Made by a program: the position numbers and the translations under genes. The notes below the pieces were generated by a model, which searched no databases, was not told where the DNA came from, and saw only the letters and a program-made list of their open reading frames with translations. A DNA stretch of 64,000 nucleotides. Origin: Myotis daubentonii (Eukaryota > Chordata > Mammalia > Chiroptera > Vespertilionidae). How positions within the stretch are numbered: the stretch's first letter is position 1; every line of letters starts with the position of its first letter. The stretch is from assembly GCF_963259705.1 (NCBI RefSeq), contig NC_081841.1, positions 27,641,244 through 27,705,243 of the forward strand, written 5' to 3'. Positions 204 through 51,255 of this stretch are shown here, piece by piece.

Positions 204-514
204 TCTAAAAGCCAGAATGATCAGTCAACCAGTCGCTATGATGCTCACTGACCACCAGGGGGCAGATGCTCAATGCTGGAACTGCCTCCTGCTGGTCAAT
301 GTGCTCCCACAGCCAACCTCCCTCAGCTGGCCAACCTCCCCCCACCCCCCCATCCCTCCCCTTGTTCCTCCCCCCTGGCCAGCAAGTCCCAATCTGCCCT
401 GTCCTGATTGGCCTGGCCCTGGTTGGGCCTGGGCAAGAGGGCCCTAATAGGCCCTGATCGCAGGCCAGGCCCAGGGTCCTCACCCATGCCCGAATTTGTC
501 CTCCAAGCCTCTAG
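204..514 (+). mobile_element. degenerate Helitron (HeliBat-type, non-autonomous)
   Basis: The left end resembles the HeliBat start (TCTAAAAGCC, then AGAATGATCAG and CAACCAGTCGCTATGATG). The right end is a decayed GGGCCTCTAG (AAGCCTCTAG), stopping at CTAG before a T. The subterminal arm CCACCAGGGGGCAG is present and its inverted partner is mutated. The interior is C-rich. No helicase or Rep coding is seen. It is older or more degraded than the other copies. Confidence 0.7.
252..265 (+). promoter_or_regulatory. CTCF-core-like motif inside Helitron
   Basis: CCACCAGGGGGCAG matches the core of the known CTCF consensus (CCACNAGRKGGC). The inverted partner at 282-295 is degraded. Binding is inferred from sequence only. 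Confidence 0.4.
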
Positions 515-939
515 TTCTTTATATAATGCATCACACTTTGAGTAAGACATGAACTCTGTCCAAGCTTAGAGTTGCAACTTCAAAATTATATAAACATGCA
601 AAAGAAACTTAGAAGAAAAAATAAGTGTAATCAGGGGGAAATAGAAGTCAAGTGCTGTTTTAAAATTCTTTGGCATTAACGTTAGGGGGCTCAAAAGTAT
701 CCAAGGAGGGCAGAATTTCTTCTAAGACAGAAACCAGGAATAAGTTAATAGTTGGGGCATTTGAGGGACACAGAGGATCGCTCAGTAAGAGCAGATGACA
801 ATCTCCTCTTGGGTACATGACCAAGGCTCTTCAGCCTGTGGCCCAAGAAAAGCCGAACCTGTGTCGCAACCATAGATTTGTTTGCATGGCTTCCTCGACT
901 CCCAGAAGGTCTATTATCTAGTTACTCTTTTTTTGGTAC
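515..939. other. intergenic, nothing recognised
   Basis: AT-rich single-copy-looking sequence. I see no exon, repeat or conserved motif that I can name. Confidence 0.5.
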
Positions 940-1145
940 TTTTCACCAAATACTCCATTTACATTATCTCATTTAATTTTCTCTATGACCCAAAAAAGAA
1001 GGTATTATTCAATTCATTTTACAGATAGACTAAAGCTCAGAGAAGTTATGCAACTTATTCAAGGTCACTTTGCCAGTTTTGTAGAGCAGGAATTTGAAGC
1101 TGTGTTTATTTGATTCTAAAGCACCTACTGTTTACACTATATTGC
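940..1145 (-). repeat. MIR SINE, antisense
   Basis: It contains the MIR core read backwards: CATTATCTCATTTAATTTTC, then ATTTTACAGATAGACTAAAGC and GGTCAC further on. This is an old pan-mammalian tRNA-derived SINE, heavily diverged. Confidence 0.6.
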
Positions 1146-1227
1146 CCCCAAAGGTTAATTTGACTAATTTGGCTTATCTTAGGCCCTCATATTTCAGGCT
1201 CTAGATCTAACATAGTAGGATCCTAGT

Positions 1228-1415
1228 TAGCATTGTCAGATGAAATAAAAGATTCCCAGTTAAATTTAAATTTCAGATAAACAACAACATTTTAAGTATA
1301 AGCATATCCCAAATATTTAATGGTAAATAGTTATACCCCAAAATTATTTGTTGTTTATCTGAAATTTAAATTTAACTGAGTGCCCTATATTTTCACTTGC
1401 TAAACCTGACAATCC
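1228..1415. repeat. palindromic MITE-like DNA transposon remnant
   Basis: Two inverted arms of about 30 bp (1258-1288 and 1349-1377) share CAGTTAAATTTAAATTTCAG and ATAAACAACAA as reverse complements around an AT-rich loop. The outer edges (TTGTCAGATGAAATAAAA and TTTTCACTTGCTAAACCTGA) are also roughly complementary. This agrees with an ancient non-autonomous eutherian DNA element; I cannot name the family with certainty. Confidence 0.55.
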
Positions 1416-2340
1416 TAATTTTAGTAGGTTCCCCAGATGAGAGAAAAGAAAGTTTGTGGTTTCTGACCATTGTGAAAGAATTGGGAAGTCATAAAAGCCT
1501 GATCTGTGAGAAATTCTCTAGTTTATCTCCATGGCTTTGGCAGAACTGGGATGTGCCAGTTGCTGGTGGCACACTCTGATGCCACTGGTGATTCCCATGG
1601 CCTGAATCACACTTCGGAGAGCCACCGACATTGCCTGTTTGCTGGGGCAGGAGGGTGCCCACAGCACAAGAATTGGATTCAGTGAGCAGAGGAGCTGGGA
1701 GGGCACTTCCTAAGCCACTGGGAGCTTTGTAAAGTGAAGATCCGCTGATGCCTTCTCTATGGTTTGATGCAGAAGGTCACAGGGTCAGACTCTGTGGGGG
1801 CAGAGTTTTAGTCCAATTCAGGGTTTTAGTCCAATTTCTTCATTTGTTTATTTACTCATTTGACAAATATACATGGCATACGTAGTAAAGGCCAGGTACT
1901 GTTGTCGGTTCTGGGATCACAGAAATCAACAAAAACTGGAAAAGCAGCCCATATTCCAAAGGGGGATTAAGACAAAATCCTTGTGATGAGTAGGTCATCC
2001 AGGGGTCTGGCCAGGTTCACCATCTCTGGTTCCAGCTCACAAACTAGTCAATGTGTTTCTTTGAACAACTTGAAAATTGGCAGGACAGGATGAAAGTAGT
2101 AAGTTGGAAAAAAAGTATCTTGGTGGTAAGGATTTAAAATGATTTTGAAAGTAATAAGAAAAAGTTGATGAAGTTATACAACATAATATTTGAGGGATGT
2201 GCAGTGTGGTAGAAAGAGAAATAAAAGGCTAGCACAAGCCAAAGATTGTCCAGGAGAATTGAAGCTAAGGATATTAGCATAAATCTATAATGGGTGAAAC
2301 AAAGAATTCAATGAAAACAAAGCTTCCAGGTAGTGGATTA
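1416..2340. other. upstream flank or intron 1 of PDE6H, nothing certain
   Basis: Unassigned sequence. A GGGGATTAAG motif near 1963 fits the CRX/OTX core (GGATTA), which is common near photoreceptor genes but also frequent by chance. No coding exon is visible. Confidence 0.35.
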
Positions 2341-2354
2341 TGAAAGGGGTTGGC

Positions 2355-2418
2355 TCAAGATGAGGGATTAAGGCTATTTGGGAGTTCTTTGGAGCTTTTC
2401 AGGATCTTCCTTCCTAAG
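2355..2418 (+). promoter_or_regulatory. PDE6H: weak candidate for PDE6H promoter or non-coding exon 1
   Basis: GGGATTAAGG, a CRX-core match, lies about 50 bp upstream of CCTAAG|GTAAAT, a fair splice donor at about 2418. The mammalian PDE6H gene has an untranslated first exon, so a promoter and donor are expected upstream of 3606. No TATA box or CpG island supports this position, so it is only a pointer. Confidence 0.15.
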
Positions 2419-2483
2419 GTAAATATTATCAACTTTTTTGATGGAAAAGAAAATTTTTTTTTAGCTTAGCACATTTGTTTTTT

Positions 2484-2676
2484 AAATATACCTTTGTTAG
2501 ATCAACTAAAGGACTTGTATGCATGCATATAAGCATAACCAATGGACATAAGACACTGGGGGATAGGGGAAGCTAGGGGACTGTCTAGGGCGGGGGGATA
2601 AAATGGATACATATGTAGTACCCTTTGTAATACTTTAAGCAATAAAAAAAATAAATAAATTTATGTATCTTTAAAA

Positions 2677-2711
<35 letters not shown>

Positions 2712-2725
2712 ATATACCTTTGTTA
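2484..2725 (+). mobile_element. 5'-truncated L1 3' end with 16-bp target duplication
   Basis: The insert 2500-2709 ends with the bat L1 3' terminus (TAATACTTTAAGCAATAAA) and an AAAT-rich tail. It is flanked by identical 16-bp copies of AAATATACCTTTGTTA at 2484-2499 and 2710-2725. Only about 200 bp of the element was inserted, which is typical 5' truncation. It lies upstream of the coding exons of PDE6H. Confidence 0.85.
2672..2709. repeat. (AAAT)n microsatellite in the L1 tail
   Basis: About nine uninterrupted AAAT units grown from the L1 poly(A) tail. Confidence 0.9.
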
Positions 2726-2930
2726 ATCATGTTCTTTGATTTGTATATGAAGAGTGACAATGCACATTTCTACAGCTAAAATGAAAGTCTGGGAAAACCA
2801 TATTAGATAGGCCCATGATTTGGATAGGAAAAAATGTCAAAAATTTCTGAGAAATGTGTAGCTGAAGAACCTCATGTCTGGATATGAAGTTAAATCACAA
2901 ACTTACTGCTTAATTACTCTGCATCGATTT

Positions 2931-2931
<1 letters not shown>

Positions 2932-2966
<35 letters not shown>
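2932..2966. repeat. (TG)n microsatellite
   Basis: About 17 uninterrupted TG units. Confidence 0.95.
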
Positions 2967-2967
<1 letters not shown>

Positions 2968-3605: not shown

Positions 3606-3652
3606 TTTAAGGGGCCTGAAGAAGAAACATCGGCCACCAAAGGACCATAAGA
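3606..3652 (+). other. PDE6H: PDE6H 5' UTR part of exon 2
   Basis: These are the 47 bases between the CACAG acceptor and the start codon. An in-frame TAA at 3647-3649 precedes the ATG, which supports the chosen start. Confidence 0.75.
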
Positions 3653-3786: not shown

Positions 3787-3844
3787 GTAAGACAAGGATG
3801 AAAAATAAGACTTCCTATTGTTTCTTTTCTCCCATAAGACTGCT

Positions 3845-4067: not shown

Positions 4068-4863
4068 TGCCGGGAGCCGGTCCATCCTTGCTGTTTCAAG
4101 GGACCTGGCATATATGGCATACGGTTCTTAATATGTTTGCTCACCTTCTTGGCGCTGTGTTTTAACCAAGGTCACCTCTCCGAGAAAGGTTGTTTCCCCA
4201 CATAGGAATTTTTCCCTGAAGTCAGGGAGGGGATGCCTCTCCTAGAAAGGTTGTTTCCCCAGGTAGGAATTTTTCCCTGAAGTCAGGGAGGGGATGAAAC
4301 TCCTTAACTAAGTGCCAGGCGGGTAGTTAATCACTACAAACAATCATGCTTAAGCTACATAATCTTTACTCCCTGGAATGGAGATAAGAAACGCCCTAAC
4401 CTTTGTAATAGAGATTGATAGGATTGAATCAACTGGTATAAATACAGTTGTAACAAGACAGAAACACTCAGAACTTAGAACACAGAATTCAGAAGACAGA
4501 ACCTACGCGGAACCTGGAGATGGAGGAGCTTCGCTGGAGAGAACATGGCAAGGGATCCTGGACTGAACCTGACTACAGAAATTGCCAAGAGAACCTGACT
4601 AGAACCTGGTGACCGAACCTGGCTGGAGATCTCAGACAGAACCTGGCTGGAGAACCTAGCGAGGGAACATGGCTACAGAACCTCGCTGGAGATCCGAAGC
4701 AGAACCTCTCTGGAGATCCAAACCAGAACTTCGCTGGAGATCCTGGCTGGAGATCCTGGCTAGGCTGCTGATCAACTGAACACTGTCTCCGTGTCCTTCC
4801 TTCTTCGCCGACTCCGTCTACGCCTTTGGGAACCCCTGGACCTGCTGGGGTTGGACCCCGGCA
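4068..4863 (+). repeat. 5' LTR of the ERV
   Basis: It starts TGCCGGGAGCC and ends CCCCGGCA. A TATA box (GGTATAAATACAG) lies at about 4436-4447, so U3 covers about the first 370 bp. U3 contains an internal duplication of GAAAGGTTGTTTCCCCA and ATTTTTCCCTGAAGTCAGGG. R-U5 is built from many imperfect GAACCTGGCTGGAGA-type units. Its first 380 bp equal the 3' LTR exactly; the remainder does not. Confidence 0.92.
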
Positions 4864-4865
4864 TA

Positions 4866-4883
4866 TGGCGCCCGAACAGGGAC
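4866..4883 (+). other. primer binding site, tRNA-Lys3 type
   Basis: TGGCGCCCGAACAGGGAC, two bases after the LTR end, is the standard tRNA-Lys(UUU) primer site used by several beta- and lentiviruses. Confidence 0.92.
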
Positions 4884-4886
4884 CCC

Positions 4887-5567: not shown

Positions 5568-6378
5568 TGCCGGGAGCCGGTCCATCCTTGCTGTTTCAAG
5601 GGACCTGGCATATATGGCATACGGTTCTTAATATGTTTGCTCACCTTCTTGGCGCTGTGTTTTAACCAAGGTCACCTCTCCGAGAAAGGTTGTTTCCCCA
5701 CATAGGAATTTTTCCCTGAAGTCAGGGAGGGGATGCCTCTCCTAGAAAGGTTGTTTCCCCAGGTAGGAATTTTTCCCTGAAGTCAGGGAGGGGATGAAAC
5801 TCCTTAACTAAGTGCCAGGCGGGTAGTTAATCACTACAAACAATCATGCTTAAGCTACATAATCTTTACTCCCTGGAATGGAGATAAGAAACGCCCTAAC
5901 CTTTGTAATAGAGATTGATAGGATTGAATCAACTGGTATAAATACAGATGTAACCAGACAGAGAGACAGAACTCAGAACTCAGAACTTAGAACACAGGGC
6001 TTGGAAGACAGGACCAAGAGAGACAGAGCCTAGGCACAGAACCTACACAGAACGTTCTCTAGAGACAGAAGAACTTCGCTGGCGAGAGCATGCCGGAGGA
6101 TCCTGGACCGGGACTGACCTCGGAGCCTGGAGGCGGAGCCTGGCGAGAAAACATGGCAGGGGATCCTGGACTGAACCTGACTGCGGAGTTTGGCAGGAGC
6201 GCCTGACTAGAACCTGGTGACTGGACCTGCCTGGAGAACCTACAGAACCTGGCAATAGAACCAGGCAAGAGAACCCAACCATGCTGGTCAACTGAACGCT
6301 GCCTCCGTGTCATTCCTTCTTCGCGACTCCGTCCACACCTTTGGGGACCCCTGGACCTGCTGGGGTTGGACCCCGGCA
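5568..6378 (+). repeat. 3' LTR of the ERV
   Basis: Same start and end as the 5' LTR. It is identical over 5568-5947, then differs by many substitutions and indels across R-U5 before converging again on GACCTGCTGGGGTTGGACCC. It ends CCGGCA, followed by the TGGTTC duplication. Confidence 0.92.
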
Positions 6379-9084: not shown

Positions 9085-9495
9085 TCTACACTAATAAAAG
9101 CCTAGGTGGTCCTTGTGCACGACATTGTCACAAGATGGCCACCACAAGATGGCTCTGTGCACAGTGGAGGTGGGGCCCAGTGGCTGCTCTGCGTGGTGAG
9201 GCCTGGGGGGTCCCGCAGCTCCATGCAACACAGAGGAGGCCGGTCCCAGTGGAGAAGGCAGGCTGTGGCAGGGGAGGGTAGTTGTGGGCATCAGGGGAGC
9301 AGTTAGGCATCAATCAGGCCAGCAGGGGAGCGGTTAGGGGGCGATCAGGCTGAAGGCAGAAGCGGTTAGGGGCAATCAGGCAGGCAGGCTGGCAAGTGCT
9401 TAGGAGCCAGTGGTCCCAGATTGTGAGAGGGTACAGGCCAGGCTGAGGGACATGTCCACCTCCCCCATGAACTAATTTTGTGCACTGGGCTTCTA

Positions 9496-14640: not shown

Positions 14641-16654
14641 TGTCAGTTTGAAAACATGGATGTGGTCCAAGCCTACATTTTAAACATCAGACTGATGGAC
14701 TCTCAAATGTAACAGTAAGAATGATAAGCTTGATTGTTTTCATCAGTCATACCACCTCCTTACCACAAAACATTCAGGTGGTCTGTGTTCTGCCTGGCTT
14801 TGCTAGACAGCACCTGCTAGATAATAGGCTAATTCCCTTATCTTCTTTGAGAATAAAGCAAGGATATTGGATTAAATGATCACTAAGGTCCCTTTCAGTT
14901 TAAAATTCAAGAACCAAGTATACATTTACACCTGTTTCAAGCATGAACAAACTATTCTGTGTATGACCAGAAGTCCCAAGGCACAGAGCCTCAGTTTCCA
15001 GCTCTTTTCAGAATGTGTTGAACTACCATCCTTCCACATTTCTCCAGAGCCTCCAAAATCATGTACAGTACTGCCACCTGCTGTAATGAGTGAGCACTTC
15101 GTGAACACTTGGAAGACAGTCATTTCTATTCGAAGACATACATCCATTGAGCTAATTCTGAAAATGTTCATCCTCACTGACCAATTTAAACTGGCTATCC
15201 ATATTTACCATGTGCATGCTTATCCATGCATCAGATAAATGTGAAAGAGTATAAAACTGAACATAGGACAAGGTAAGTCTCATTGCCACCCAATGCCATG
15301 ATGGCCCACTCCACTTGCAGCCAATCCCTGATATGAGTTTGCTGTGATTACTTCCAGAGACAATCTGGGCACAGACATATTTCGGTGTATGTAGTATTGT
15401 TCCTGGTTGTGTACTCAGTGTCTGGTGTGGAGTCAGGCAGATAGTAAGCACTCACTAGTTATTTGTTCCATGAATGAATAAAACATGAATTAAAAGACTG
15501 GCTCTAGCATTTCTATCATAGCCGACAGGTACAGAAAGGAACGTGCTAACAGATTTGGTTGACACATGCCCCAGGGATCTCAGAAATAGCTTGTGGGGTA
15601 CAGTAGTGGGCAGCTGACTGAACTTCCCACATTGGCAGTCGAGATCCAAACCAGAGAAGTATGGCTTTCTGACTGTTGTTGTGAAAATACGTCAACACTC
15701 AGGCTGCTATGACTTGTGGCCATGCAGTTCACATGCCGTTGGAGAAATATAGTAAATGCTTGAAGATTGGGGAGAGCTAAGCCTGGTCTCTGGGTGATAC
15801 TTGTGCTCCTGAACTTTTCCTCAAAGTATTTCCATTGTTCTTTATGTTTTGTAATTTCTGCCAGCAAAACTAGGAGAATTAAAAAGAAAAAAGCCACATC
15901 TCTATAGAATTGGACTTAGAGTGCCATCTTGTGGATGTTTAGCTTCATTTTCACTATTCTAGCGCTGACAAAAAAATACATAGCTAACTTACACATACAT
16001 TCCTAAGAAATGATAAAACTGGAAGATACTTTAGATTACTCACTACATGTCCTCATTTTGAAGAAGAAAAAACTTGAGACCCAAAGGATAAAATGACTGG
16101 TCACTCGTGATATTTTCACTAGGCCAATCTGATGGGCCATTTGATACATCAGCTACCTTAGTTCCCCAGATGGTTTGCAAATGTCAGCAGTGAGGGACGT
16201 GGAGCGAAGAGAATTTTACTTGCATACATCTTCTCTTTATATTTTCAACAAATTTGTTTCCAGGCTTCAGACCAATCCCTCCCCTGGAGCCCAGAGCCCC
16301 TCTGAGATTCTAGTTTACAGATTGTGATCCCCCATTTCCCCACTGGCTTGAAGTTGGAAGGGAGTGGGAGGAGGCACATTATGTGTCAGGTACTGTCTTA
16401 TCTATGGAAGATACAAAGACAAAAGAAACTCTCACACCAGTAGAAGGAGATGGATTAGTGGATAAGGGATCTGACAGAGGTTCCTGTTGCTCTAGTTCAG
16501 GCCTTCAATACCAGGGACCAGGCCCAGAGATTCATTGCTTTTTTTATCCATTTAAAACAGAGGTCTTTGTTTTGTAGGTCTAGCATTTTATATAGCTCAA
16601 AGCTTAGACACAATATTCTTTCTAAACTCTACTGGATTTCCTTGGTTGTTTTTT
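14641..16654. other. intergenic, unassigned
   Basis: I see no exon with splice sites and no intact repeat. Base composition is even and AT-rich. Confidence 0.4.
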
Positions 16655-16722: not shown

Positions 16723-19440
16723 TTTCTTCACCTAAAGTGCACACCTGGATCTGTATGACCATCCAGGTTGTTCAGATATTGATTATTGATATTTCTATAA
16801 CATGGGTAATGACTGTGCTGACCCCCCTCTGTCCCCATGTCCCTGTACCCTTGCGTCTTTGTCACAAGTACAGAAACCAATGGGTTAATGCCTCACATTA
16901 ACTCATTGGTTAAGGTCTCATTGCATGAAGCCTCTAGGTCCTCACTCTATCACCCATACCTTGTTGGTTATTAAACATTTTTAATATCTCTTTTGAGTTA
17001 GTAGAACATAGCGTCTGCAGAACTCAAATGCCTCCAGAGGCCAGCAGGTGATGGCACTGAGTGACGCTGGCTGAGTAGAGCCAGAGGTTGCGCTTCACTC
17101 TGGAGGACACCTGCAAGCAGCGGCCACTTGGAGCTCAGGCCCATATTCCCAGAGCCTCACAGGAGCCAGACTATGGGTTTTAGTGTTAGGTGAGAGAAGG
17201 AATACGGTAAGGATTTTAAAAATTCTTCAGAAAATAGAGTTTATATTTATGGCATTTGAAAAAGTTAGTATACATAATCTACAGATGTTGCTCAGAGTTT
17301 AAATTAGTTAAAGACCAGTAAGTATATAACTTTAGTTATTTTTTTCTAACATAGTTTATCACAACACACACATACAAATTTGTTTAATGTTCTCCATATT
17401 TCAATGGTCATGGTGCCTAGAAGAAGCTATAGAAGTTGTAGTGAAGGCATCTATGATACTTATTTTGCCCACAGTAACAATATGGCAGACTATCTTATGA
17501 TATTCCTTTATCCAGGCTACTAACAGTGCACTAAACACGTGATTTGCCAATGAAGCTTTAAAACAAGAACCGGTTCCTGAAACATCTCCGGATTTTTATT
17601 TCTCCTACAAAATTTGCATCTACGGCTCATGTTAAGTCTTGGTGACGGGGATCATTTCAGACACCCACAGGATGGTCTGGAATGTGAGAACAGCGGCAGA
17701 AGGCGTGCCCTGCAGCCCACCCACCTCTGTGTGCAGGGCTGGAGCTGATGTGCCTGTACTTGGCTCTTCCCAGGAAGCAATACATCTTAGGCCTCATTGT
17801 GTTATCAGGGACATGATGTCAACCAGGCTGCTCAGTATGAGTCACTGACAGTTGAAATGATGGCTTATAAAAGATGGAAAGTTAATGTAAAATGTCAATC
17901 CAGGTGAGCTGGAGCAATTCTTCTTTTTTTTTTAAAAAAAAAAAACTAAATAAAATTTCTGCGTGTTCATCACATTAGGAAAAGGAAGTGGATTGACTAT
18001 CCCTTTCCCCCATGGACCTAGCATGACTGGCCATTGCTTTTGTATTAGTTTGTTGTCCATCTACCCCATTAGAATGAGCTCCACACGGGCAGGGAATTTG
18101 TCTCTCTTACTCATTGTTGCAACCATCTCAGCATCTCGGGAGATGCCCGTGTATAGAACCACATCAATAAATGCTTCTTGGGTGAATAAATACATGGATA
18201 AATGAATGATACAGCTATTTGTGTGTCTGATGTTGCAGAGATCGATACGGAAAAAGCGGAAGCTTCTCTTCTCTAGATGCAGCAATGTTGGTCTTTGTTT
18301 GCAAACTGCAGTGCCAGTTGAAGTAGGTGCTGTGGTTTGTGACTCTGGCTGAGCGTATTGGAAGGGGTGGCTAAGAAGATACTAGTTCATAAAGCTACTG
18401 CCTCTCTACTCCAGCTCCCCTTGTGACATTGGAGCTAGAGGCTAGGCCATGTCACTGGGGCTCTATGGAGGGGGAGGGTTAAAGGCAGGCTGTGAGGCAG
18501 AGGGAGGGAGGGAGGAGTTCCTGTTCCTGTCAGCAGCATCCCCTAGCAACAGGCCCCTCTCCTGGTAGGAGTGGTTGTCCTGGTTCTATTCTACAGTTCT
18601 TTATACTCTGCGCCCCCTACTGTCTGCAGAGGTGCCAGCATGAGGCACTGCCGGGTGGGCAACCAAAGGGCTCCCTCTCCACCCCAACTCTTCTTCCTAT
18701 GTCACCTTCCCTAGGGTGGTCCCTGCTTCCGGAAATGATCTCCCTATTACCTCAATGTCCCCCCTTTGCATTTTTAGCCCTCTCACACCTTATTTAGCCA
18801 GTTTCCTATAACTGATTACAATTACTTCATAATAAATTCCACCTGTTAACCTAATTAGTATGCTTTCTGAACTGGACTCTGGACTGGACTCTGATGGATA
18901 AGCATTCTCGTCTTGTCCTTTATCCTACAGCTATTTCTGTCCCTACAAATTCTGTATTTCAAAGCTCTAACAACTTGCCGTAGACTTAGACATAGGACTT
19001 CTTTTAATTTAATTCTAATTGCAAGATTTTTTTTAGAACTTAAAAGTGTTTTTTCTGATGGTGGGTATTTAAACACATAAAACAAAAGGAGGTGTGTATG
19101 GAATATAAATCCCATAATCCCATTTATCAATTCTAACACATTTTGGTTGGATTTATGTGCTCTTATTTTTAAAAGCACCCTTTTTCAAAACTGCAGCACA
19201 AAAAACCTCAATGGTCCATGGATCCTGAGGACATCCCTTTCTATGATATTTGAGGGGAGAAAAGCTTCCTACAGGTTTGTAATCCTTCCCAGATGGGTAA
19301 TTCGTTTTTTCATATGGAGCAATTTGAGTTATTTGCGTTCCCTTAGAAGTAGTAATAAGTCACTTTGGAATGCTGTGTAGTGTATTACCTTCCCTCCTCC
19401 CCCCCCAGATTATAATTGTTTTACTCTTGTTGGCCCTCTA
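16723..19440. other. intergenic, unassigned
   Basis: A mildly GC-richer patch at 17020-17190 has no clear exon signals. An A/T run lies at 17925-17945. No gene is recognised. Confidence 0.4.
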
Positions 19441-23093: not shown

Positions 23094-23839
23094 TCTATAC
23101 TAATAAAAGGGTAATATGCTAATTAGACCGGGAGTCCTTCCGGACATCATCTGGACAAAGTCATGGTGGCGGGGCTAAGGCAGAGGTGGTTAGAGGCAAT
23201 TAGACTGGCTGGGGAGAACAGTAGGGAAGTGGTTCTCAACCTGTGGGTCGCGACCCCTTTGGGGGTCGAATGACCCTTTCACAGGGGTCACCTAAGACCA
23301 TCAGAAATCACATATATAATTACATATTGTTTTTGTGATTAATCACTATGCTTTAATTATGTTTAATTTGTAACAATGAAAATACATCCTGCATATCAGA
23401 TATTTACATTATGATTCATAACAGTAGCAAAATTACAGTTATGAAGTATCAACAAAAATAATTTTATGCTTGGTGGTCACCACAACATGAGGAACTGTAT
23501 TAAAGGGTTGAGGCATTAGGAAGGTTGAGAACCACTGAGTTAGGGGGATCAGGCCAGCAGGGGAGAGCAGTTTGGGGTGACCAGGCCATCAGGGGAGTTA
23601 GGGGGCAATCAGGTCAGCAGGGGAGCTGTTAGGGGCATCAGGCTGGCAGGCAGAAGCAGTTAGGGGAAATCAGGCAGGCAGGTAGGCAAGCGGTTAGTAG
23701 CCAGTGGTCCTGGATTGTGAGAGGGATGTCTGACTGCCGGTTTAGCCCAATACCCTGAGGGTTCCCGGATTGGAGAGGGTGCAGGCCAGGCTGAGAGACC
23801 CCGCCTCCTGTGTACGAATTTCATGCACCAGGCCTTTAG
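23094..23839 (+). mobile_element. Helitron (HeliBat-type) interrupted by SPIN
   Basis: It starts TCTATACTAATAAAAGGG and ends with the GCACCAGGCCTTTAG terminus (CTAG decayed to TTAG). The interior has GTTAGGGGGATCAGGCCAGC-type repeated units. A SPIN element sits at 23227-23537, splitting one unit. Without it the Helitron is about 435 bp, the size of its relatives at 9085 and 58481. Confidence 0.85.
23227..23537 (-). mobile_element. SPIN (SPACE INVADERS) hAT element, non-autonomous
   Basis: Terminal inverted repeats AGTGGTTCTCAACCT and AGGTTGAGAACCACT enclose GTGGGTCGCGACCCCTTTGG, TTAATCACTATGC and CCACAACATGAGGAACTGTA, the SPIN miniature consensus. No transposase. The 8-bp target duplication is no longer clear (TAGGG shared). 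Confidence 0.9.
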
Positions 23840-24667: not shown

Positions 24668-25134
24668 CTAGAGGACCTGTGCACAAAAATCTGTGCACTC
24701 GGGGGGGGGGGGGGGGGGAATCCCTCAGCTGGGCCTATGCCCTCTCGCAGTGTGGGACCCCTCGGGGGATGTCCACCTGCAGGCTTAGGCCTGCTCTCCG
24801 GGGAACAGGCCTAAGCTGGCAGTCAGACATCCCTCTGGCAGCCTGGCAGCCCTCGGGGGATGTCCACTTGCCAGCAGGGAGCAGACCTAAGCTGCAGTCG
24901 GACATCCTTAGTGCTGCTGAGGAGGTGGGAGAGGCTCCTGCCACCACCGCTGTGCTGGCAGCCATCAGCCTGGCTTGTGGCTGAGCAGAATTCCCCCTGT
25001 GGGAGCCCACTGACCACCAGGGGGCAGCTCCTGCACTGAGCATCTGCCCCCTGGTGGTCAGTGTGTGTCATAGTGACCAGTCATTCCCAGTCGTTCTGCT
25101 GTTAGGGTCAATTTGCATATTATCCTTTTATTAT
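24668..25134 (-). mobile_element. Helitron (HeliBat-type), minus orientation
   Basis: Read on the minus strand it begins near TTATAATAAAAGG, TAATATGCAAATTGACCC and ends at the terminal hairpin and CTAG (24668-24671 in reverse). It carries GCCTAAGC-type hairpins and the inverted CCACCAGGGGGCAG pair. A run of about 18 G lies inside the terminal region at 24701-24719. Confidence 0.85.
25014..25057. promoter_or_regulatory. inverted pair of CTCF-core-like motifs
   Basis: CCACCAGGGGGCAG at 25014-25027 and its reverse complement at 25044-25057 face each other across a 16-bp loop within the Helitron. The motif fits the CTCF core; use is untested. Confidence 0.45.
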
Positions 25135-25588
25135 AAAAGTTGCACGGGTGGGGGCTGACTGGTTTGCCCTGAAGGGTATCCTGGATCAGGGTGGGGGTTC
25201 TGCTGGGGTGCCTGGCCAGCCTGGGTGAGAGGATGATGGCTGTTTTCAGACTGACCAAGCCCCCTGAAGACCAAAGCTCCCAGCCTCTCTTTTTTTTTTA
25301 TTTGCTCCAGCTCCATGGCCGTGGTGACTGGAAGCAGGTATCTGGGGTTTATTTACCTTCTATAATTGAAAATTTGTTGCCTTGAGAGGAGGCAACAGCC
25401 GGCCGGCCGGGAAGCTTGGCTTCTTCCATCACTGGGGCAACCAACCCTTCTGCTTGCTCCAGCTCCGTGACTGCTGGTCGCCATCTTGGTTGGGTTAATT
25501 TGCATATAGTCGCTCTGATTGGCTGGTGGGCGTGGCTTAAGGTGTAGCAAATGTATGGTCAATTTGCATGTTTGTCTATTATTAGGTA
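25135..25588 (-). mobile_element. second Helitron-type element, minus, joined to the first
   Basis: The right end, read backwards, is TAATAATAGACAAACATGC, then CAAATTGACC, CACCAGCCAATCAGAG and CCAAGATGGCGACC, the same 5' region as the large element ending at 62096. The left end is not clear and fuses with the Helitron ending at 25134. The GC-rich part near 25400 has CCGGCCGGCCGG. Confidence 0.65.
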
Positions 25589-33265: not shown

Positions 33266-35871
33266 AGGTAGCAGGGTTTAGACCTTCTTGGGGTCTTCTT
33301 CTCTTTGAGAGGATCGGCCACATACTGCCAAGGAGATTCTATCTAGGAAAAGAGAAAGATGGTTGCAGCCCAGAGACCCCTGAGTTTGTAATTCCAATGG
33401 CAAAAGGACCATAAATTGTTTCTGGTGGGACTGAAATATAAATGGTTGAATGTGTACTTAGAATGTCACCTCCAAGAAGGCATTAAAAGAAAGAAGGTGG
33501 TTGATCAAATATCATTTCTTGTTTTTATGAGATATTCTGAAAGCAAGAGGCAGGAGTCAATTCTTGTTTTGCATGTCCGTGCATAGGGTAACTTGGTTAT
33601 TATCTTATAAATATTTAGAATCATTTCAGACAATGTTCTGGATAATAGACTGCACTTTTTATTGGAAGATTTCGTCAACAATGAAAACTTACTGGGAAAT
33701 TCCATGTTTAAGCATGCAAATTCAGGCTGCTCATAAATATTAAAATGGGGTTAGAAAACATTTTTGAGAATTTAAACAAGCTCCTAACTTTTTAAATTAA
33801 GTAAACATAAAAAGCAATCTCATTTTGATAAGTTTATCTGGTAGAACTAACAGAACATTTGATAAATTTTCCCGTCGAGGAAATGCTAATAGAAGATTGA
33901 TTTTCCCAAAACCATACTGGTAAGTGGAAAAAACAGGATTAGAACACTGGTCAATTTGAATTACTCTATTGTTTTATTTCAAACTTATTTGGTAAATATT
34001 TTTTAAAGTTTATATTTTAGAATTGTTTATTACTATTTAATTTTTTCTTATTAGCAGCTGTTTTGAGGCAAGGAATAGAGTAAAAATGTCTTTAATCTAC
34101 TATCTTTAGTTATGGATGAAGGGTGCAATTTCACCTTATTACCTCTAGTTTGCCAAATGCCAGAGATGGTGTATTTTAGAAGTTAAAAGGGTTTGGGTTT
34201 TGGATCCAGACTGCGTCAGCTTTAATTATTCTTTCACTAGCTTTTGATTATTCAATTATATTAAAATATAACCACTATGGTGATGATTAAACAACAAGAT
34301 TATACCCTTTATGATTTTTGGAATATATAAAATCCATATATTATTAATGATAGTTAATTAAAGTAGCATTTTTACTACTAAAGACCCTTGTTCTTTGCCT
34401 GTTTCAGGTGAAGTAAGAATATTTGCTGTTCAACTTCTAATTTTATTTAGGTCTCATTTCAGCCCTACTATTTGTGTAACCTTGAGAAATTACTTTATGC
34501 CTCTATGCCTCAGTTCCCCCATCTGAAGAGTGAACATGATATTTTTTGCTTTGTTCTGAGGATTAAATATGTTAATATAAATTAAGTGTTTGGGACAGCA
34601 TCATAATTAATCAACTCTCAGTTATTATCTTGGTGTTGGTGAGTAAATATCAGAACTAGTGAAAAGATTATGTTGTTACCATGATGCTTTACTAACATAC
34701 TCTTCACTAGAGTTTGAAGACACTATGAAATGGGTTGATTCTAGACCTTTTAATGGATTAAGGATTAAAGCTATTGAAAGACTTAAAGGCTAGGTCATTG
34801 AAAGACTTCTAAGGAATTTTATTGTCCTTGAGCATTAGCTATAGGTCTGGCAGTATATTAAGTTCCAATATCATTTTGTTTATTCCCCAGAACTCCAGGA
34901 TGTATAATTTCCCTATTGTATAGGGAATGCTCTTGCACACTGTAATATTGAAAAGATTCAGAGAAGAATCACTTATATAGTTTCTTTTTCACATTTGTTT
35001 AAGTGTTAATGTTATTAATTAGACTGGATTATTGGTTTTAGATATGGAATACTAAAATGTTTCCACTAAGCTACCTATGCTCCCAGCTTTTGCCCCACCC
35101 CCATTCTCATTTTTTATCCTCTCAGGCAACAACTGTTACAGCCTACTAGCCTAAATAAAGTTTCCTAGGCTAAATGTATTGCAAGCTACCCAAATGTTTT
35201 ACTTTATGGTGGAATACGAACCAAACCTAGTTTGACTGCAGGTGTTTAAACTCGTGGGTCTTGGCAGAATTAACAAATTCTTGCTTTGTGCAGAATAAGC
35301 CGAGTGTTTGGGACTCTGCCCCTTGGGTAGGATTGTGGTTTAGGAAACTCAAAACCTATAAAGATGGCCACCTGCCAATGCTTTGAGGTAGAGTCTTTGA
35401 AAGTCTCTATGGAACCTCTGTTGGCCAGCTTTATGACTCCAGTTGGCTGCCTGCAAAATAAGTGAACAAATGGTTAACAGACTATGCTAGTTACAAGTAC
35501 TTTCGCTTGCTTGTGCTGGTTGAATAAGTAAATGTATGGAAACTTGCCACAGAACGTTGTGAATGCCTTCTCAGTTTGGACTATTGTGAGAGAGAATATT
35601 TTAAATATATCTTGGCAACAGTACCAATGTATATATGGGATTTGTAAAGTTTTTGTTCTTATCTGCTTCAATGCCTCAATGTAATGATGTCATTACCTGG
35701 GTTTCTAGCTATTAATTTACAGTCAATTTTATATCTCCTGTCACCCTTTTAAAGATTACATTGTAATTTTAGAAATATAAAATCATTCAAGTATGCTAAT
35801 TATCTCTTATTTATGAATTTATAATATCAGTATTTAAGTAGATAAAAATATCTGGCCAGCATCCTATATAA
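33266..35871. other. intergenic, unassigned, AT-rich
   Basis: One MIR-like piece at 34450-34600 (GTAACCTTGAGAAATTAC, GCCTCAGTTCCCCCATCTG). Nothing else recognised. Confidence 0.4.
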
Positions 35872-36503
35872 TAAAGAGGTAATATGCAAATTGACTGCCA
35901 TGCCCTCACACAAATGGCTGCCCCATGTGGTCAAAAGATGGCCGCCAAAGGATGGCTGGCAGGGGAGGGCAGTTGTGGGCAATCATACCAGCAGGGGAGG
36001 GAGGTTAGGGGTGACCAGGCCAGCAGGAGAGGGCAGTTAGGGGGGACCAGGCCTGCAGGGGAGGGAGGTTAGGGGCAACCAGGCTGGCAGGGGAGGGCAG
36101 TTGAGGGCGACCAGGCCACCAGGGGAGGGCAGTTAGGGGTGACTGGGTCAGCAGGGAAGGGAGGGCAGTTGGGGGGTACCAGGCCTGCAGGGGAGGGCAG
36201 TTGGGGGTGACCGGGTCAGCAGGGGAGGGCAGTTGGGGGCAATAGGGATGCTTGGGGAGCAGTTAGACATTGATCAGGCTAGCAGGGGGGGTAGTTAGGG
36301 GGTTATCAGGCTGGAAGACAGGTGAGCAGTTGGGAGCCAACAGTTCCAGATTGTGAGAGAGATGTCTGACTGCCAGGATTGGGCCTAAACCAGCAGTCGG
36401 ACATCCACTGAGGGGTCCTAGATTGGAGAGGGTGCAGGCTGGGCTGAGGGACACCCTCCAACACACACACCCAGTACACAAATTTTGTGCACTGGGCCTC
36501 TAG
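35872..36503 (+). mobile_element. Helitron (HeliBat-type) with internal tandem repeats
   Basis: It starts TCCTATATAATAAAGAGG and ends ACACAAATTTTGTGCAC then TGGGCCTCTAG. Between 35960 and 36290 lie about nine imperfect ~34-bp units of the form GACCAGGCCAGCAGGGGAGG plus GCAGTTAGGGG. Confidence 0.93.
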
Positions 36504-41498: not shown

Positions 41499-41761
41499 CT
41501 AGAGGCCTGGTGCATGAAATTCATACACAGATAGGGTCCCCAGGCCTGGCTGGTGATCAGGGCCAATCGGGGCATTCCAGCTGCCTACCAGGGCCTTCCT
41601 TCCCTCATCTGCCAGCTGCTGGCCAGGGTCTTCCTTCATTCCGCGCACTCCCTATGGTCAGTGCATGTCATAGCGAGTGGTTGAACTCCTGGCCAGTCAA
41701 ACTCCCAGTTGGTTGAACTCCCAAGGGGACAATTTGCATATTAGCCTTTTATTATATAGGA
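41499..41761 (-). mobile_element. short Helitron (HeliBat-type), minus
   Basis: Left CTAGAGGCCTGGTGCATG; right end CTTTTATTATATAGGA, the inverted start. At 263 bp it is an internally deleted copy. Confidence 0.9.
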
Positions 41762-41859: not shown

Positions 41860-42215
41860 GCAAATAGCAGAATGACCAGCTGCTATGATGTACACTGACC
41901 ACCAGGGGGCAGACGCTCAACACAAGAGCTGCCCCCTGGTGGTCAGTGCGCTCCTACAGGGGGAGCGCCGCTCAGCCAGAAGCCAGGCTCACGGCTGGCG
42001 AGCATAGTGGTGGTGGTGGGCACCTCTTCCACCTCTGCAACAGCGCTAAGGATGTCTAACTGCTGGCTTAGGCCCACTCCCCAGGGGGAACAGGCCTAAG
42101 CCATTAGTCGGACATCCACCAAGGGCTCCTAGACTGCGAGAGGATGCAGGCTAGGCTGAGGGATCTCCCCCTCCCCCTCTGCTGAGTGCACACATTTTAT
42201 GCACCGGGCCTCTAG
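41860..42215 (+). mobile_element. Helitron 1 of a head-to-tail trio, 5'-truncated
   Basis: It begins within the ATGCAAAT/AGCAGAATGACC part of the HeliBat 5' region, so the first ~40 bp are missing. It has the full inverted CCACCAGGGGGCAG pair, GGCTTAGGCCCACTCCCC hairpin arms, and the end GCACCGGGCCTCTAG at 42215. Confidence 0.92.
41899..41942. promoter_or_regulatory. inverted pair of CTCF-core-like motifs
   Basis: CCACCAGGGGGCAG at 41899-41912 and its reverse complement at 41929-41942 are both perfect. They form the subterminal stem of the Helitron. Confidence 0.5.
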
Positions 42216-44345: not shown

Positions 44346-44684
44346 CCCTTAACAACCAGCATGTTTCAGAAAGTAGATTCCTACAGGGTTATTTACCAAA
44401 CATTCAGAAGTATTTTTAAAAGAGCTAAGCCCCTCGCCCACCGTGTGGGCCCCTCCCAGCGAAGAGCGAAGGCCTGGGTTCCGGGCACCGGAGGAAAACT
44501 GGTGCCAGCAGCCAGGGGAAGGGGCCCCCAAGGGGCTCCATATTGCGAGAGGGCACAGGGTGGGCTGAGGGACCCACCCGAGTGCACAAATTTTTGTGCA
44601 CCGGGCCTCTAGTCTATATAATAAAAGCCCAGCAACCGTTATGGCAGAATGACCGGAAAGACCAGTAGCTATGGCGCACTGGCC

Positions 44685-44869
44685 ACAGGAGCCACCACCA
44701 ACACTGCTGCTGAGCCCAAGGGCCCCAGGGCCAGTTGCACAGCCGCTGCCAAGGCACTGGTAAAGAAGAATGCAAAGGTGGCCAGTGTGAGTATGCAGCT
44801 TGAGATGAAGGCTCTGTGGGACAAATTCAATCAGCTGGGCACTGAGATGATTGTCACCAAGGCTGCTAG
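44685..44869 (+). pseudogene. TBX1: TBX1-like exon fragment captured by Helitron
   Basis: TBX1 is a T-box transcription factor of pharyngeal and heart development. This fragment encodes [31 protein letters not shown] and [13 protein letters not shown], which match the segment before and at the start of the T-box as I recall it. The coding match stops at GCTGCTAG|GTCAGGG, which looks like an exon end with a retained GT donor; the following ~700 bp do not continue the T-box. An unspliced junction implies DNA-level capture and not a retrocopy. Without the rest of the T-box it cannot bind DNA as TBX1 does. It is open from about 44649 and could be read as an exon. Confidence 0.8.
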
Positions 44870-45690
44870 GTCAGGGAACCCCTCTCCCCGTTGTGACTCT
44901 CCCCACATGGTGCCAGTTTCAGGCAGTGGGCTTTGGCCCGATCCATGTGAACAAGACTGAGAAGCAGGGTGGAGGGTGTGGCCTGGCCACCTGCAGGTCC
45001 CTCTTCGAACAAGCCAGCTCCTTTGCTCTGAGTACTGGCTCTAGCAATAGCCACCTGGTGTGCTGGGCTGGAGGGTACTGCTCAGGAGGCCAGGAAGACA
45101 GTGGAGAGAAACCCTGTGGACCTGCCACCTGACCAGCAGCCCAGGACCCAGCACTGCCAGAAACAGACCAGCTCAGACACACTGAGCTTGGGGGGAAGGC
45201 AGCCACCTGTGAGGGGCCTTGCCACCAGCCGGCTCCCAGTGGATCCCACCTCAAAGGAAACTTGGTCTTTGGTTCCTTAGTTCAGTCTATCCTGGCTAAA
45301 GAGGAGCAGCTGGGCACATTTCAGGGGAGAATTAAGACTCTAAAACAGTGTGTTCTGTTCTGTGGAGATTGCTACCCAGTTGTCTTAAGCCTAAATTCTG
45401 GGTGTTTGTGGGGCCTGGCTCTGCCACTGGCCCATGTTTTCCAATTGGACTGTATTTGTTGTAAGGACCCAAAGAGAAGAAGGGAAACAAGTTTTTTGAG
45501 GCAATGGATTTGAGCAACAGACAAAGGTGAGTGCTGGGCTGTGTCTAATGTACACACAGAGACCCTAGCTCTGAGTCCGCCTGGCCAAAGGGAGCTCAGG
45601 GCCTGTTTGCAGAGCCTTACGGAGGTTTCTGTTTCCTTGCTGAGGCTGTGCTCCCTGGGAAGCCTGGGTCCATGATCAGCTCCAGCTCAG
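44870..45690 (+). other. non-Helitron filler after TBX1 fragment
   Basis: Likely captured intronic or other host DNA (CTGGAGGGTACTGCTCAG, GGCAGCCACCTGTGAGGG). Source not identified. It has no long conserved frame. Confidence 0.4.
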
Positions 45691-46365: not shown

Positions 46366-48529
46366 GTTTATATGAAGGCAGAAGAGCTTTTTAGGCCTTT
46401 GGCTACATATGATGCCTCAGCCACAGGGAGAAATACTTCTATACGTAGGTGACTGACTCCATTAGGGCTGGTAAAGCCCAGATATCATAGGAGGTTGGCT
46501 TTACTTTAGGGCTATGAATTCATTATGGAAGGAAATAGGGTAGACTGAAACTCTGTAGATTAAACACTTAATTCAGTCATGGATGTGGGAAAACAACAAC
46601 AACAACAACCAAAAACCCCCACACCGAACAATCAGCAAACCATGGGTCTTGACATTTGCCTGACTTCGGTTCAAATCTTGCCTCTGCCATGAACAGATAT
46701 GTAACTTTGGGCAAGTTACTTAAACGTTGATGCTAGTTTCTCTTCTTTAAATGGGGATATGAAAACATTCCTCCAGAGCCAGTGCAAGGAGGTGAATGAA
46801 ATAAATCATGTGAAATGTAAGTGGGTTGCAGACCATCAGTAAAAAATAGGTACTAGCATTAAGGTTACAAATTTTTTAATTTTTCTTAATCCACTTACTA
46901 CCATCATCATGATGATTCTCCAAGTCTCTGCTTGCTTTTTTTTACCCAGACATTTGATTAATTAGATCTCATTATTTTGAAAATGTAAAAAAAACCCCGA
47001 CTCAAACTATTTTTGTCAGCCTTCTTTTTGTGTAAGTTGTACTATACTGCCCACATAAGGATACTTAATATTCAAATAGAATTGTCCAAAAACACTTTGC
47101 TCTGTAAAATATTCATTGGAAGTATTGTATCATCGACTTTGGACATCTAATAATTTATCTTATTTTAACTTAATAAGTTGGCTAATATTTCTGTTAGAAT
47201 CTTTATTTGATAGCTGTTAGTTTCCTAAATTCACAAGGTGGCCCATGACCTTGGAAAAAAAGATTAAAGCATCAGTTAGATGCATGTAAACATAAACAAT
47301 GTACCCTTTTGTAGGGTTTGCCACTTGAATTTACTTTAGAAATACTTACTGTAAGAAAAAAGCAAAGAAAGGCCAGAGAAAGAGCAGTGCCTCAGTAATT
47401 CCACTCTCCATTTTCAAATAGATTCTGTCCTCACCACTGCCTCATATCCTATAAAAATTACTCAATGTGTTTGTCAGTATTGGAATTAAAAATAAGAGTC
47501 TTCATTAAAATAAAATAGACTAAATCAGTTCAAGTGATAAAACTATTTTACAAATTCAGTTCAGACCGCAAGGAGCCAAGTTTGGGGGGCACTTATTAAA
47601 ACATTTTTAAGATGGTGTGGGGCTTGTCTCTTGCATTTTAGATACATAATTGGTATTCTAGTTAAGGCTCAGAGCTAAATGGAAGTAGCTACCCAATGGA
47701 CTACCTTTTATGACCTATAGATTTAAAGCACATATTTTCTAACTTTAAATAATTAAAAAATAGTTATTTCTGTTTAGAGAATTTAATATTTCAATTTCTT
47801 GTACATATGGAACAACTTTAAATTGAGAATAGGACTGATCTATTGCAATCCTGATTTTACCCCCATTTTCTTGTTTGGATTTTTTTTTTTCTTATGATTC
47901 ATTTTGGGTCAGCTGTTCTACTTCAGGAATTTAAATTCTTGATCTTTAGGCTTTTGATATTAGAGACTTTAAGTTTTCTTTCCCTTGGCAACCAGCTTTA
48001 ATTGCACCAATAAGAGTTCTTTCTGTGATCATAACTAAAAGGGCTGTTTGCAGTTTGCTTTTAAAAATATTCCCTCTCCTCTAAGATCTCTTGTGTCCTT
48101 TCATGTTAAAAAAGCAGAAATTAGTCACTGCTATACAGGATGTCCCCCTAATTTGAATCCTGAGTATATCTTTTTTTCCCCCAGTGAGGTAGTTTCTGTT
48201 ACTTGACTCCATAACAAATTATAACATTTTTGTACTGTCTCATTACCTATAAATCACTTTCATATTCTCATTTGAACTTTATAATAAGCCTACGAAATAG
48301 TAGACTCACTTGTTGAACCCCTGAACTTAAATATTGACTGAATAAAATGTAAATATTACATCTTATTTTTTAAAGTGGGTATTCCAAGCATTGCAAAGTT
48401 AAAATTATTTTTTAAAGTCACTAGGTAGAATTTGGACTCTTCTTTTCAGTTTTTCTAGATCACAGGGCAAGGTTTTTTCCTACTACATGATATCACACTG
48501 AGCATATTTGGGACTTCAGTTTTTGTTAT
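46366..48529. other. intergenic, AT-rich, unassigned
   Basis: MIR-like SINE in sense at 46645-46850 (TTTGGGCAAGTTACTTAAAC). No gene or other named repeat is supported. Confidence 0.4.
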
Positions 48530-49027
48530 TATTATTGTTAAAGTAAAATTTACATAGAGTGAAATATTCTGTTATTAAGTGTATAATCTGAGTTTTGAGA
48601 AATGGATTCATATGTACAAAACCAACATGCTAGTCAAGGTATTGAATATTTCTATTTCCCCCAAATTCGCTGGGGACCTTTCCTATAACTCCCACCCCAG
48701 ACAATCAAAGCTCTGATTTCTTTTCCCACTATAGTTTAGTTTTGCTTGGTTGAAATATCCTTATAAGTAGGATTATATAATAGAGAGGCTACTCTGTCCT
48801 ACTTCTTTCACCCAGCATAATGTCTAAATAGCTTATTGTATAAATGTTTATTATATTTTATTGCTGAGTATGTACCACAGTTTTTCATCCATTCTCCTGT
48901 TCACTAGCAGTTAGGTTGTTCATTACTAGTATATTTAGCTATTATAAATCAAACTGCTATAAGCATTTGTGTACAAGTTTCTTTGTGAATACAAATTTTC
49001 ATTTTTGCTAAGAGAGTTGCTAGGTTA
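48530..49027 (-). repeat. long antisense L1, part 1
   Basis: Backward L1 text (TTTCACCCAGCATAATGTC, ATTGCTGAGTATGTACCACA). The same L1 continues after each Helitron below, to about 51400. Confidence 0.75.
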
Positions 49028-49636
49028 TTTATAATAATAAAAGAGTAATATGCTAATTAGACTGGACAGCTGAACGACCTTCTGGACATCATTCTGGACG
49101 ACCTTCCTGAATGACCAGTGGGTGGGGGTCGGGGCCAGCAAGCCTGCTCTGCCTGGCCAGCCATGGTGGTCCCAGTGCTGCTCCTGCAGTGGCGCAGGGA
49201 CAGGGGGCAGTGCAGTTCTGGAGCCTCTGCAGAGGCTGGACGGGGTGCAACCGTGGTGTCTCAACCTCCCACAGCCCCTCCCCCAGCTGGCCTGGCCCCA
49301 GATCACCCTCCCCCCAACCAGTGGGTGGGGGCGGGGCCAGCACTAAGAAGCAGCAAGCCCAGCTTCTGGTTGAGCCACACTCTCCCCTCCACCCCCATCA
49401 GCCAAAAGTCGGGCTCATGGCTGGTGAGCACAGTGGAGGTGGTATGAGCCTCTCCGCCTTCACGGCAGGCAGGCGGTAAGGAGCCAAGGGTCCTGGACTG
49501 CGAGAGCCCCGGACTGTGAGAGGGATGTTTGAGTTCCAGCTTAGGCCCAACCCCTGGGGGGGTCCTGGACTGTGAAAGGACACAGGCCAGGCTGAAGCCA
49601 CCCCCCAGTGCATGAATTTTGTGCACTGGGCCTCTA
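49028..49636 (+). mobile_element. Helitron (HeliBat-type) inside L1
   Basis: It starts near TTATAATAATAAAAGAG, then TAATATGCTAATTAGACTGG, and ends GAATTTTGTGCACTGGGCCTCTAG at 49636. Interior: GTGGGTGGGGGCGGGGCCAG present twice. Confidence 0.9.
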
Positions 49637-50854
49637 GTAGGTTAGATAAAAAGCCAAGGCTTTTCCCAAAGTGGTTGTTCTATTTTATGTTTCCATCAAT
49701 AATGTATACTATTCATTCCACTTCCTTGTTGATATTTAGTATTGTCAGTCTTTTAAATTTTAGCCATTGTAATGGGTATATAGTGGATCTCATTATGGTG
49801 TAATTTGCATTCCCTTGGTTAATATGTTGAGCTTTTTTCTTGTCATATTATGCAATTCATGTATCTTTATTAGTGTAGTGTTGAAACCTCCCCCACCCCC
49901 CCAGTTTTAAAATAAATTGTCTTTTTGTCACTGAGTTGTAGATATTCTTTATATATTCTGGATACATATCTTTTGTCAATTGTATGTATTGTGAATGTGT
50001 TCTCTGAGATGGTGCTTGACTCTTTATTTTCTGACGTTGTCCTGATGAATGGCGATCTAACATTTTTTCTCTTATTGTTATTGGTTTCTTCATTCTAAGA
50101 AATATTTGCCTCAACCCAGGTTTCAAAGATGTATTTTTTCTGAATGTTTTATAGATTTAGATTTTACATTTGGGTCTGTAAATTTAATATTTACATTGTG
50201 TCCATTAGTGTGAATTTTTCTGTATGGTGTAATACAGATGTCAAGACTAATGTTTTCCATGTGTATAGCCAGTTTCAGCAACTTTCATTGAAAAGGTGTT
50301 TATTTCCTTATTGAATACTTTATCTTCTTTTCAAGTCAGTTGACTGTATAAGCATATTTGTTCATGGACCATTTTTTTTTTTTGATCCTTATGCCAACAT
50401 TGCAATATTTTAATTACTGTAGGTTAAGAGCAAGTCTTGAAATGATAGTGTCTTCCAATGATTTTGTCCAAATACTTCCATTTAAAGTTTAGAAATAGTC
50501 TGTTAACTTTAGTGAAATCCTGCTGAGATTATAATTAGATTGTATTCCAATTTATAGATCAAATTGGGGAGAATTAACAGTTTAACAATATTGAGTGTTT
50601 CAACCCATGAACTTAGGACATCCTTTCATTTACATAGGTCCTTGATTTCTCTGTTCAGTGCTATGTAGTTTTCAGTATATAGACCTTTAGATGCCCTGTT
50701 AAGTTTATTCCTCAGTATTTTGTTTTGATAGTATTGTGAATAGAATTTTTAAGTTTATTTTTAATTGTGTAGCACAGAATATGGAAATAAATTAATTTTG
50801 CATTTTGACTTTGCATCGAGAGCTTCATAACTTCACATAGTTGTTTCATAGATT
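49637..50854 (-). repeat. long antisense L1, part 2
   Basis: Continuation of the L1 ORF2 region in reverse (TTTTTGTCACTGAGTTGTAG, TTCTGGATACATATCTTTTG). Confidence 0.75.
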
Positions 50855-51255
50855 ACTCAGATGCTAAGCGACCGGCTGATCAGCTGACCAGCCAGTAGCT
50901 ATGATGCGCACTGACCACCAGGGGGCAGATGCTCCACGCAGGAGCTGCTGAGTGACAGCAACTTTGCAGAGTGCCCTCTCGCACTCCAGGACTTCTCAGA
51001 GGATGTCGGACTGCTGGTTTCAGCCCAATCCCACAGGCCAGGCCAAGGGACCCCACCTGCCGGAGGGACCCCGCTCACTCCACAGATGCTCTTTGAGCCC
51101 TGGCGCTGCCCCAGGTGTGGCTGGCTGCGAAGGGACCATGGGAAGTTGGCACCAGGGCGTGTCCAGCCCTTCTTGCCTAGTCCTAGTCCCACCCCGCTGG
51201 CCACCTTCTAATTAATTACTTTCAATGTGCACAAATTCGTGTACCGGGCCTCTGG
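50855..51255 (+). mobile_element. Helitron (HeliBat-type), decayed ends, inside L1
   Basis: The 5' part is missing the TCCTATATAATA start. It has CCAGTAGCTATGATGCGCAC, one CCACCAGGGGGCAG, and the end GTGCACAAATTCGTGTACC then GGGCCTCTGG. Confidence 0.85.
50915..50928 (+). promoter_or_regulatory. CTCF-core-like motif inside Helitron
   Basis: Perfect CCACCAGGGGGCAG. The inverted partner is deleted in this copy. Confidence 0.4.

Follow-up and report, generated by a model that had tools for sequence, protein, structure and literature searches.

In rodents, dog and opossum, bound CTCF motifs have been spread by repeats (PMC3368268), and more than 10,000 insertions of the B2 SINE are bound by CTCF (PMC8136502). 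The locus described here raises the question of whether rolling-circle transposons of vesper bats do the same. It is a 64,000-nucleotide stretch of the Myotis daubentonii genome (the window) in which short Helitrons carry CTCF-like sites, in three of four carriers as inverted pairs. DNA transposons already provide 1.8-28% of the TE-derived CTCF sites at loop anchors or borders in human, mouse, dog and macaque (PMC9902604); that survey includes no bat, and the whole words 'helitron' and 'bat' are absent from its text. Myotis lucifugus has more than 100,000 Helibat copies, all subfamilies taken together (PMC4778049). The term CTCF does not occur in this bat Helitron paper, and in the available part of PMC9446614, a study using CUT&RUN and Myotis lucifugus fibroblasts, it appears once, as an RT-qPCR transcript. 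Among openly licensed papers (CC0, CC BY, CC BY-SA), a search by title or start of abstract found none that links bat Helitrons with CTCF.

Occurrence and strength of the CTCF-like sites

The core sequence CCACCAGGGGGCAG occurs exactly six times in the 64-kb window, at 252, 25014, 41899 and 50915 on the plus strand and at 25044 and 41929 on the minus strand. These are the positions named in an earlier note on this DNA, and all of them were located. When up to two mismatches are allowed, nine sites are found against 0.44 expected, a number reached in none of 100 shuffles. Three of the nine carry two mismatches, and one of these (282, minus strand) pairs with the site at 252. The sites were scored with the full 19 bp of a hand-entered version of the CTCF matrix MA0139.1 (JASPAR; maximum 28.72 bits). 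The six exact sites have the six best scores of the window, 21.33-23.41 bits, and the next-best score is 18.86 bits. The suggested fit to the CTCF core is therefore borne out, and the low full-length scores that would have told against it are absent. At least 18 bits are reached by 10 sites in the window, whereas 50 dinucleotide shuffles average 0.16; the corresponding figures are six and 0.02 for at least 21 bits, and three and none for at least 23 bits. The top shuffled score, 21.39 bits, is level with three of the six exact sites. The 31/32-bp minisatellite units reach 14.28 bits at most and were left out of the tally of CTCF sites.

All six exact sites go back by descent to one arm of a palindrome and its inverse and do not count as six independent events. 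They have one origin, which is what would be expected if a single ancestral arm happened to resemble the CTCF motif and was spotted because the motif is famous; the motifs of many other factors could equally have caught notice. Such a chance likeness is nevertheless very improbable. A 19-bp CTCF match has a p of about 8e-9 per position, or roughly 7e-6 for a 450-bp element read on two strands, and simple arithmetic leaves it under about 1 in 100 even when 1000 motifs are allowed for. Nor would a chance origin prevent binding.

Helitron copies in the window

All six exact matches lie inside Helibat-like Helitron intervals, where the earlier note had placed them. Fifteen Helitron intervals were delimited by hand, some with guessed 5′ limits, and together make up 8.7% of the window (5,543 bp). 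The count takes in only the first 148 bp of one copy (G, below) and leaves aside three or more additional 5′ ends (among them 25591 minus, 42216 plus and 62086 minus) whose limits could not be set. CCACCAGGGGGCAG is held by four of the 15 intervals; the 11 without it include G, represented by its first 148 bp only. Eight of the 11 sites that score at least 16 bits fall inside this small delimited fraction of the window, although the sites are not independent of one another. A further CTCF-like site (58862..58880, plus strand, 17.31 bits) falls within the 5′ portion of a minus-strand Helitron with tandem repeats (58481-58935).

The four carriers are classed as Helibat-like through their similarity to other copies in the window. 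At the 3′ end they fit the type, and the 5′ end is in each case decayed or absent. Copy A (197..514, plus strand, limits set by hand) has a degenerate 5′ end and a 3′ end reading CTAG|T. Copy B (24668..25140, minus strand) also ends in CTAG|T and begins with AC instead of TC. In copy C (41860..42215, plus strand) the 5′ end is truncated or decayed and the 3′ end consists of a palindrome, 11 nt and CTAG|T. Copy D (50860..51255, plus strand) has a degenerate 5′ end and closes with CTGG|T. As every one of the four has at least one decayed end, the carriers would be old and perhaps silenced. With lengths of 318-473 bp they are too small for the 1,496-aa RepHel transposase and so would be non-autonomous.

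Both ends are clean (A|TC and CTAG|T) in four relatives, namely the copies at 35862-36503 and 58481-58935 and two copies termed E and F. Copy E (51762..52210, plus strand) shows likeness in the 5′ module to CACTAACCACC and then has another body, and its best site scores 9.63 bits. Copy F (41499..41761, minus strand) shows 5′-module likeness to CACTGACCA, again followed by another body, with a best site of 13.3 bits. The 5′ part of copy G (44613..44760, plus strand) retains the left-arm remnant CACTGGCCACAGG before passing into another body, and its best site scores 0.98 bits.

The closest published elements are the Helibat and HelibatN Helitrons of vespertilionid bats, which have TC and CTAG (CTRR) ends, an A|T target, a 19-bp palindrome that stops 11 nt short of the 3′ end, and small non-autonomous copies (PMC4778049, PMC5876387). 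This published 3′ palindrome is present, with at most five mismatches, at 10 of the scanned 3′ ends. Among the carriers it is found only in C (42186-42204, followed by 11 nt); at the same threshold the scan gave no match in A, B or D, and B has an indel variant. In contrast, the available parts of these two papers describe no left-end palindrome whose arms are CTCF-like. Comparison of the palindrome and the Helitron 3′ end with viral_contigs, and of the arm with genome_contigs, gave no matches in these non-animal collections. An Rfam search likewise gave no matches and a tRNA scan no genes.

A left-end palindrome with CTCF-like arms

The CTCF-like sites are part of a palindrome at element nt 78-133, in the left-end module, that has two arms of 20 bp around a loop of 16 nt. 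Judged by matrix score, each arm holds a near-consensus core CTCF-like site. In A, the left-arm site at 249..267 (plus strand, core at 252, 21.33 bits) is paired with a weaker right-arm site at 280..298 (minus strand, 18.75 bits), which has two mismatches in the 14-mer and differs at three positions over 20 bp from the right arm of B and C. In B, which is read here in the orientation of the element, the right arm is at 25011..25029 (plus strand, core at 25014, 23.26 bits) and the left arm at 25042..25060 (minus strand, core at 25044, 21.33 bits). In C, the left arm is at 41896..41914 (plus strand, core at 41899, 23.41 bits) and the right arm at 41927..41945 (minus strand, core at 41929, 23.26 bits). 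The sole arm of D is at 50912..50930 (plus strand, core at 50915, 21.33 bits), the right arm being replaced 4 nt in.

Three of the four carriers are paired, B and C perfectly. In these three copies the two 19-bp motifs are convergent, 31 bp apart from start to start with 12 bp between them. Because the unit is palindromic, a convergent pair results whichever way a copy inserts. The inverted pairing that had been proposed holds in B and C and extends to A through the site at 280-298 on the minus strand, but it is lost in D. The statement that the core always lies in a subterminal stem has to be given up for the same copy: the core at 50915 faces a replaced right arm, and no such stem forms when the strand is folded.

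As single-stranded DNA, B folds at -29.1 kcal/mol (z -6.75), C at -28.7 kcal/mol (z -9.34) and A at -14.3 kcal/mol (z -3.75). The fold of D, without the palindrome stem, has -12.3 kcal/mol (z -1.56). The palindrome stems do not appear among the 25 of 135 inverted-repeat pairs that were listed, most of which are AT runs. The strong hairpins of B and C are what would be expected if the palindrome served the Helitron itself, forming a hairpin in a single-stranded intermediate during replication or during the exchange of bodies by template switching. The CTCF likeness would then be incidental and the copies not appreciably bound. This alternative is possible, if rather unlikely. In its favour, the palindrome lies within the left terminal stretch of about 150 bp that is essential for Helraiser (PMC5876387, PMC4778049).

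The places at which copies diverge bear on the same alternative. B and C have a common body, other copies match their 5′ module over varying lengths before diverging, and the CTCF-like arm recurs in copies whose bodies differ. When aligned locally with B, A loses similarity 11 nt past the right arm, D 4 nt inside the right arm and G in the left arm, at nt 96. The alignments of F and E run through gapped, poor matches to nt 150 and nt 148, respectively; on our reading, the true end of similarity in E, F and G is in the left arm. Five of the seven copies with other bodies would thus lose similarity to B within the palindrome or at most 11 nt after it, as judged by alignment for A and D and by reading for E, F and G. 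Breakpoints at such places may reflect template switching by replication at a hairpin. The remaining two copies, at 49029 and 35862, match B over roughly the first 51 and 34 nt and so lose similarity earlier. Against this alternative, D, E, F and G are insertions that lack an intact palindrome, and both E and F are clean-ended; the structure is therefore not strictly needed unless it was lost later. Pairing alone also requires no particular sequence, and the 19-bp CTCF match, at the p value given above, would have to be a coincidence.

Arm conservation and the absence of CpG

All four carriers share one left-arm sequence across 21 columns, and the 38 gap-free columns of flank and loop hold 29 minority letters. 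B and C differ at none of 41 positions in the arms and at 78 of 312 outside them, or at 22 of 174 when CpG-type contexts are excluded from the latter. At the non-CpG rate, 5.3 changes are expected in the four left arms and none is seen (p 0.005); for left and right arms together 9.1 are expected and three are seen (p 0.02). The contrast between the arms of B and C and the rest of these copies has a p of 2.8e-5 against all other positions and of 0.0098 against non-CpG-type positions, and a p of 0.14 when non-CpG-type sites are used on both sides. The sample is one window, and its copies were first chosen for the exact motif. With p values of 0.005 and 0.02 in such a sample, and with 0.14 in the last comparison of B and C, arm conservation is suggestive at most, and purifying selection on the arms was dropped as an established conclusion. 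A site of such strength retains at least 18 bits with a probability of 0.55-0.66 at the non-CpG rate, so that the survival of the motif needs no selection.

A search for arms with up to five edits found, beyond the known ones, two places with four edits, at 58860-58878 and 63791-63808, both in tandem-repeat Helitrons. Should they represent decayed arms, the known arms would be less invariant than they appear, and arms that have decayed further would escape the search. Gene conversion from arm to arm could homogenise the arms within one copy, though not between copies.

CpG is absent from all seven arms. Binding of CTCF is lowered by methylation at C2pG3 and C12pG13 of its motif (PMC9264634), and the element reads A where these two dinucleotides have G. 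Methylation of the motif therefore cannot block the predicted binding. Closed chromatin still could, and in mouse CTCF and H3K9me3 are reported to be mutually exclusive (PMC10762014). The earlier note had confined its expectation of CTCF occupancy to unmethylated copies; for a motif without CpG this restriction was dropped.

Predicted function of the site pairs

The sequence finding is real and the score is strong; the extent is narrower than first stated, with four of 15 intervals carrying the motif and three of four carriers paired. At four of 15, a massive spread of this particular version stays hypothetical. We regard it as moderately probable that a short non-autonomous version of a Helibat-type Helitron seeds pairs of near-consensus, CpG-free predicted CTCF sites and that some of these are bound. 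The 11 intervals without the motif, the carrier that is minus an arm and the decayed ends of all four carriers count against this explanation. Any CTCF function of the copies is a reasoned prediction from their sequence. Every insertion would deliver a ready-made site pair, the symmetry of which would yield the same convergent arrangement in either insertion orientation, and the lack of CpG would let the motif escape both CpG decay and block by methylation. CTCF would bind a fraction of the copies, and the bound copies may serve as weak loop anchors or boundaries.

According to the CTCF orientation rule, the N-terminal sides of two proteins bound at such a pair would face each other, and 12 bp is tight. 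CTCF may occupy both 19-bp motifs at once, closely packed across this gap, or one motif at a time in alternation. The pair could halt cohesin from either side, or it could serve as a weak anchor of shifting direction.

The rodent B2 SINE is a known parallel, a family of repeats that likewise brings a CTCF-like motif of its own. B2, however, is a retrotransposon with one oriented site at which binding has been measured, whereas binding at the Helitron sites is predicted (PMC3368268, PMC8136502). Since B2 is bound although a mouse B2 stretch scores 14.23 bits (both this sequence and the MA0139.1 matrix being entered by hand), CTCF occupancy of a fraction of the Helitron copies is to be expected. 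The dog element SINEC-Cf is likewise a lineage-specific repeat with a core motif. It differs in being a SINE, and although its motif is widespread, bound events are well under a thousand (PMC3368268), which tells against such an expectation.

The paired arrangement resembles the 2xCTS, in which two CTCF motifs lie within 100 bp of each other and of which one published example is palindromic (PMC4562119, PMC5973138, PMC8219828). The linker of these sites is 30-40 bp (PMC4562119) or 31 bp (PMC8219828), in contrast to 12 bp in the Helitrons, where the pair moreover lies inside a transposon. This difference makes joint binding of both arms doubtful. Sites of the 2xCTS type are co-bound in germ and cancer cells by CTCF and its paralog BORIS (CTCFL), with motif spacing limited to less than 100 bp (PMC5973138), and the Helitron unit is a palindromic pair inside this limit. 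The pair could accordingly be selfish, recruiting CTCF and the male germ-line paralog so as to keep the element open where transposition pays, but this is improbable. Besides the short linker, CTCFL was nearly absent from B2 copies in mouse spermatids, although each of those has a single site (PMC8136502), and Helitrons without the pair have spread too. Just as improbable is a wider form of this reading, in which a self-serving, orientation-neutral CTCF/BORIS double site held its carrier open in the germ line of bats and endowed the vesper bats with a large number of symmetrical pairs that methylation does not block; these pairs may have altered loop architecture in the family. Were such a double-site reading true, it would amount to a symmetrical boundary design that single SINE-borne sites do not offer.

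The preferred explanation, that the carriers seed predicted site pairs of which some are bound, has consequences of its own. If copies are bound, CTCF sites would have been spread by rolling-circle transposons, a case found in none of the papers searched. Convergent pairs 31 bp apart would test whether cohesin is stopped from both sides or whether the two sites hinder each other. The two-armed, one-armed and armless copies would then serve as a natural experiment that shows how genome folding is rewired by mobile DNA.

A second type of Helitron, distinct from the palindrome carriers, contains tandem repeats of 31-32 bp, which are found at 9292-9388, 23538-23682, 35959-36242, 58656-58851 and 63697-63774. 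Scored with the CTCF matrix, these units reach no more than 14.28 bits; in one copy of this type, a site of 17.31 bits lies at 58862, close to the 5′ end of that copy. Tandem-repeat Helitrons also have, not far from their 5′ ends, two close copies of CACAAGATGGC (9125-9157 and 63671-63703, both + strand), a sequence that is a candidate YY1-like site. By matrix score, three further CTCF-like sites are located outside the delimited Helitron intervals, at 15919-15937 (18.05 bits), 18608-18626 (18.86 bits) and 60667-60685 (18.84 bits), all on the - strand.

Other tandem repeats in the window include a minisatellite of 8.6 copies of 58-bp units (60798-61320) and a two-copy 61-bp repeat at 4175-4296. 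The latter is seen again 1.5 kb away, at 5675-5796, which suggests a local duplication.

Helitron ends abut head-to-tail at two places in the window, 42215/42216 and 44612/44613, where the CTAG of one element is followed without a gap by the TC start of the next. The 5′ end beginning at 44613 leads into a T-box-like gene fragment (the two together span 44613-45260, + strand), which matches PDB entry 4a04 in phmmer (E = 3.5e-10) and the Pfam T-box family with E = 5e-06 and 26.9 bits (cut-off 26). This captured fragment resembles the T-box start of TBX1.
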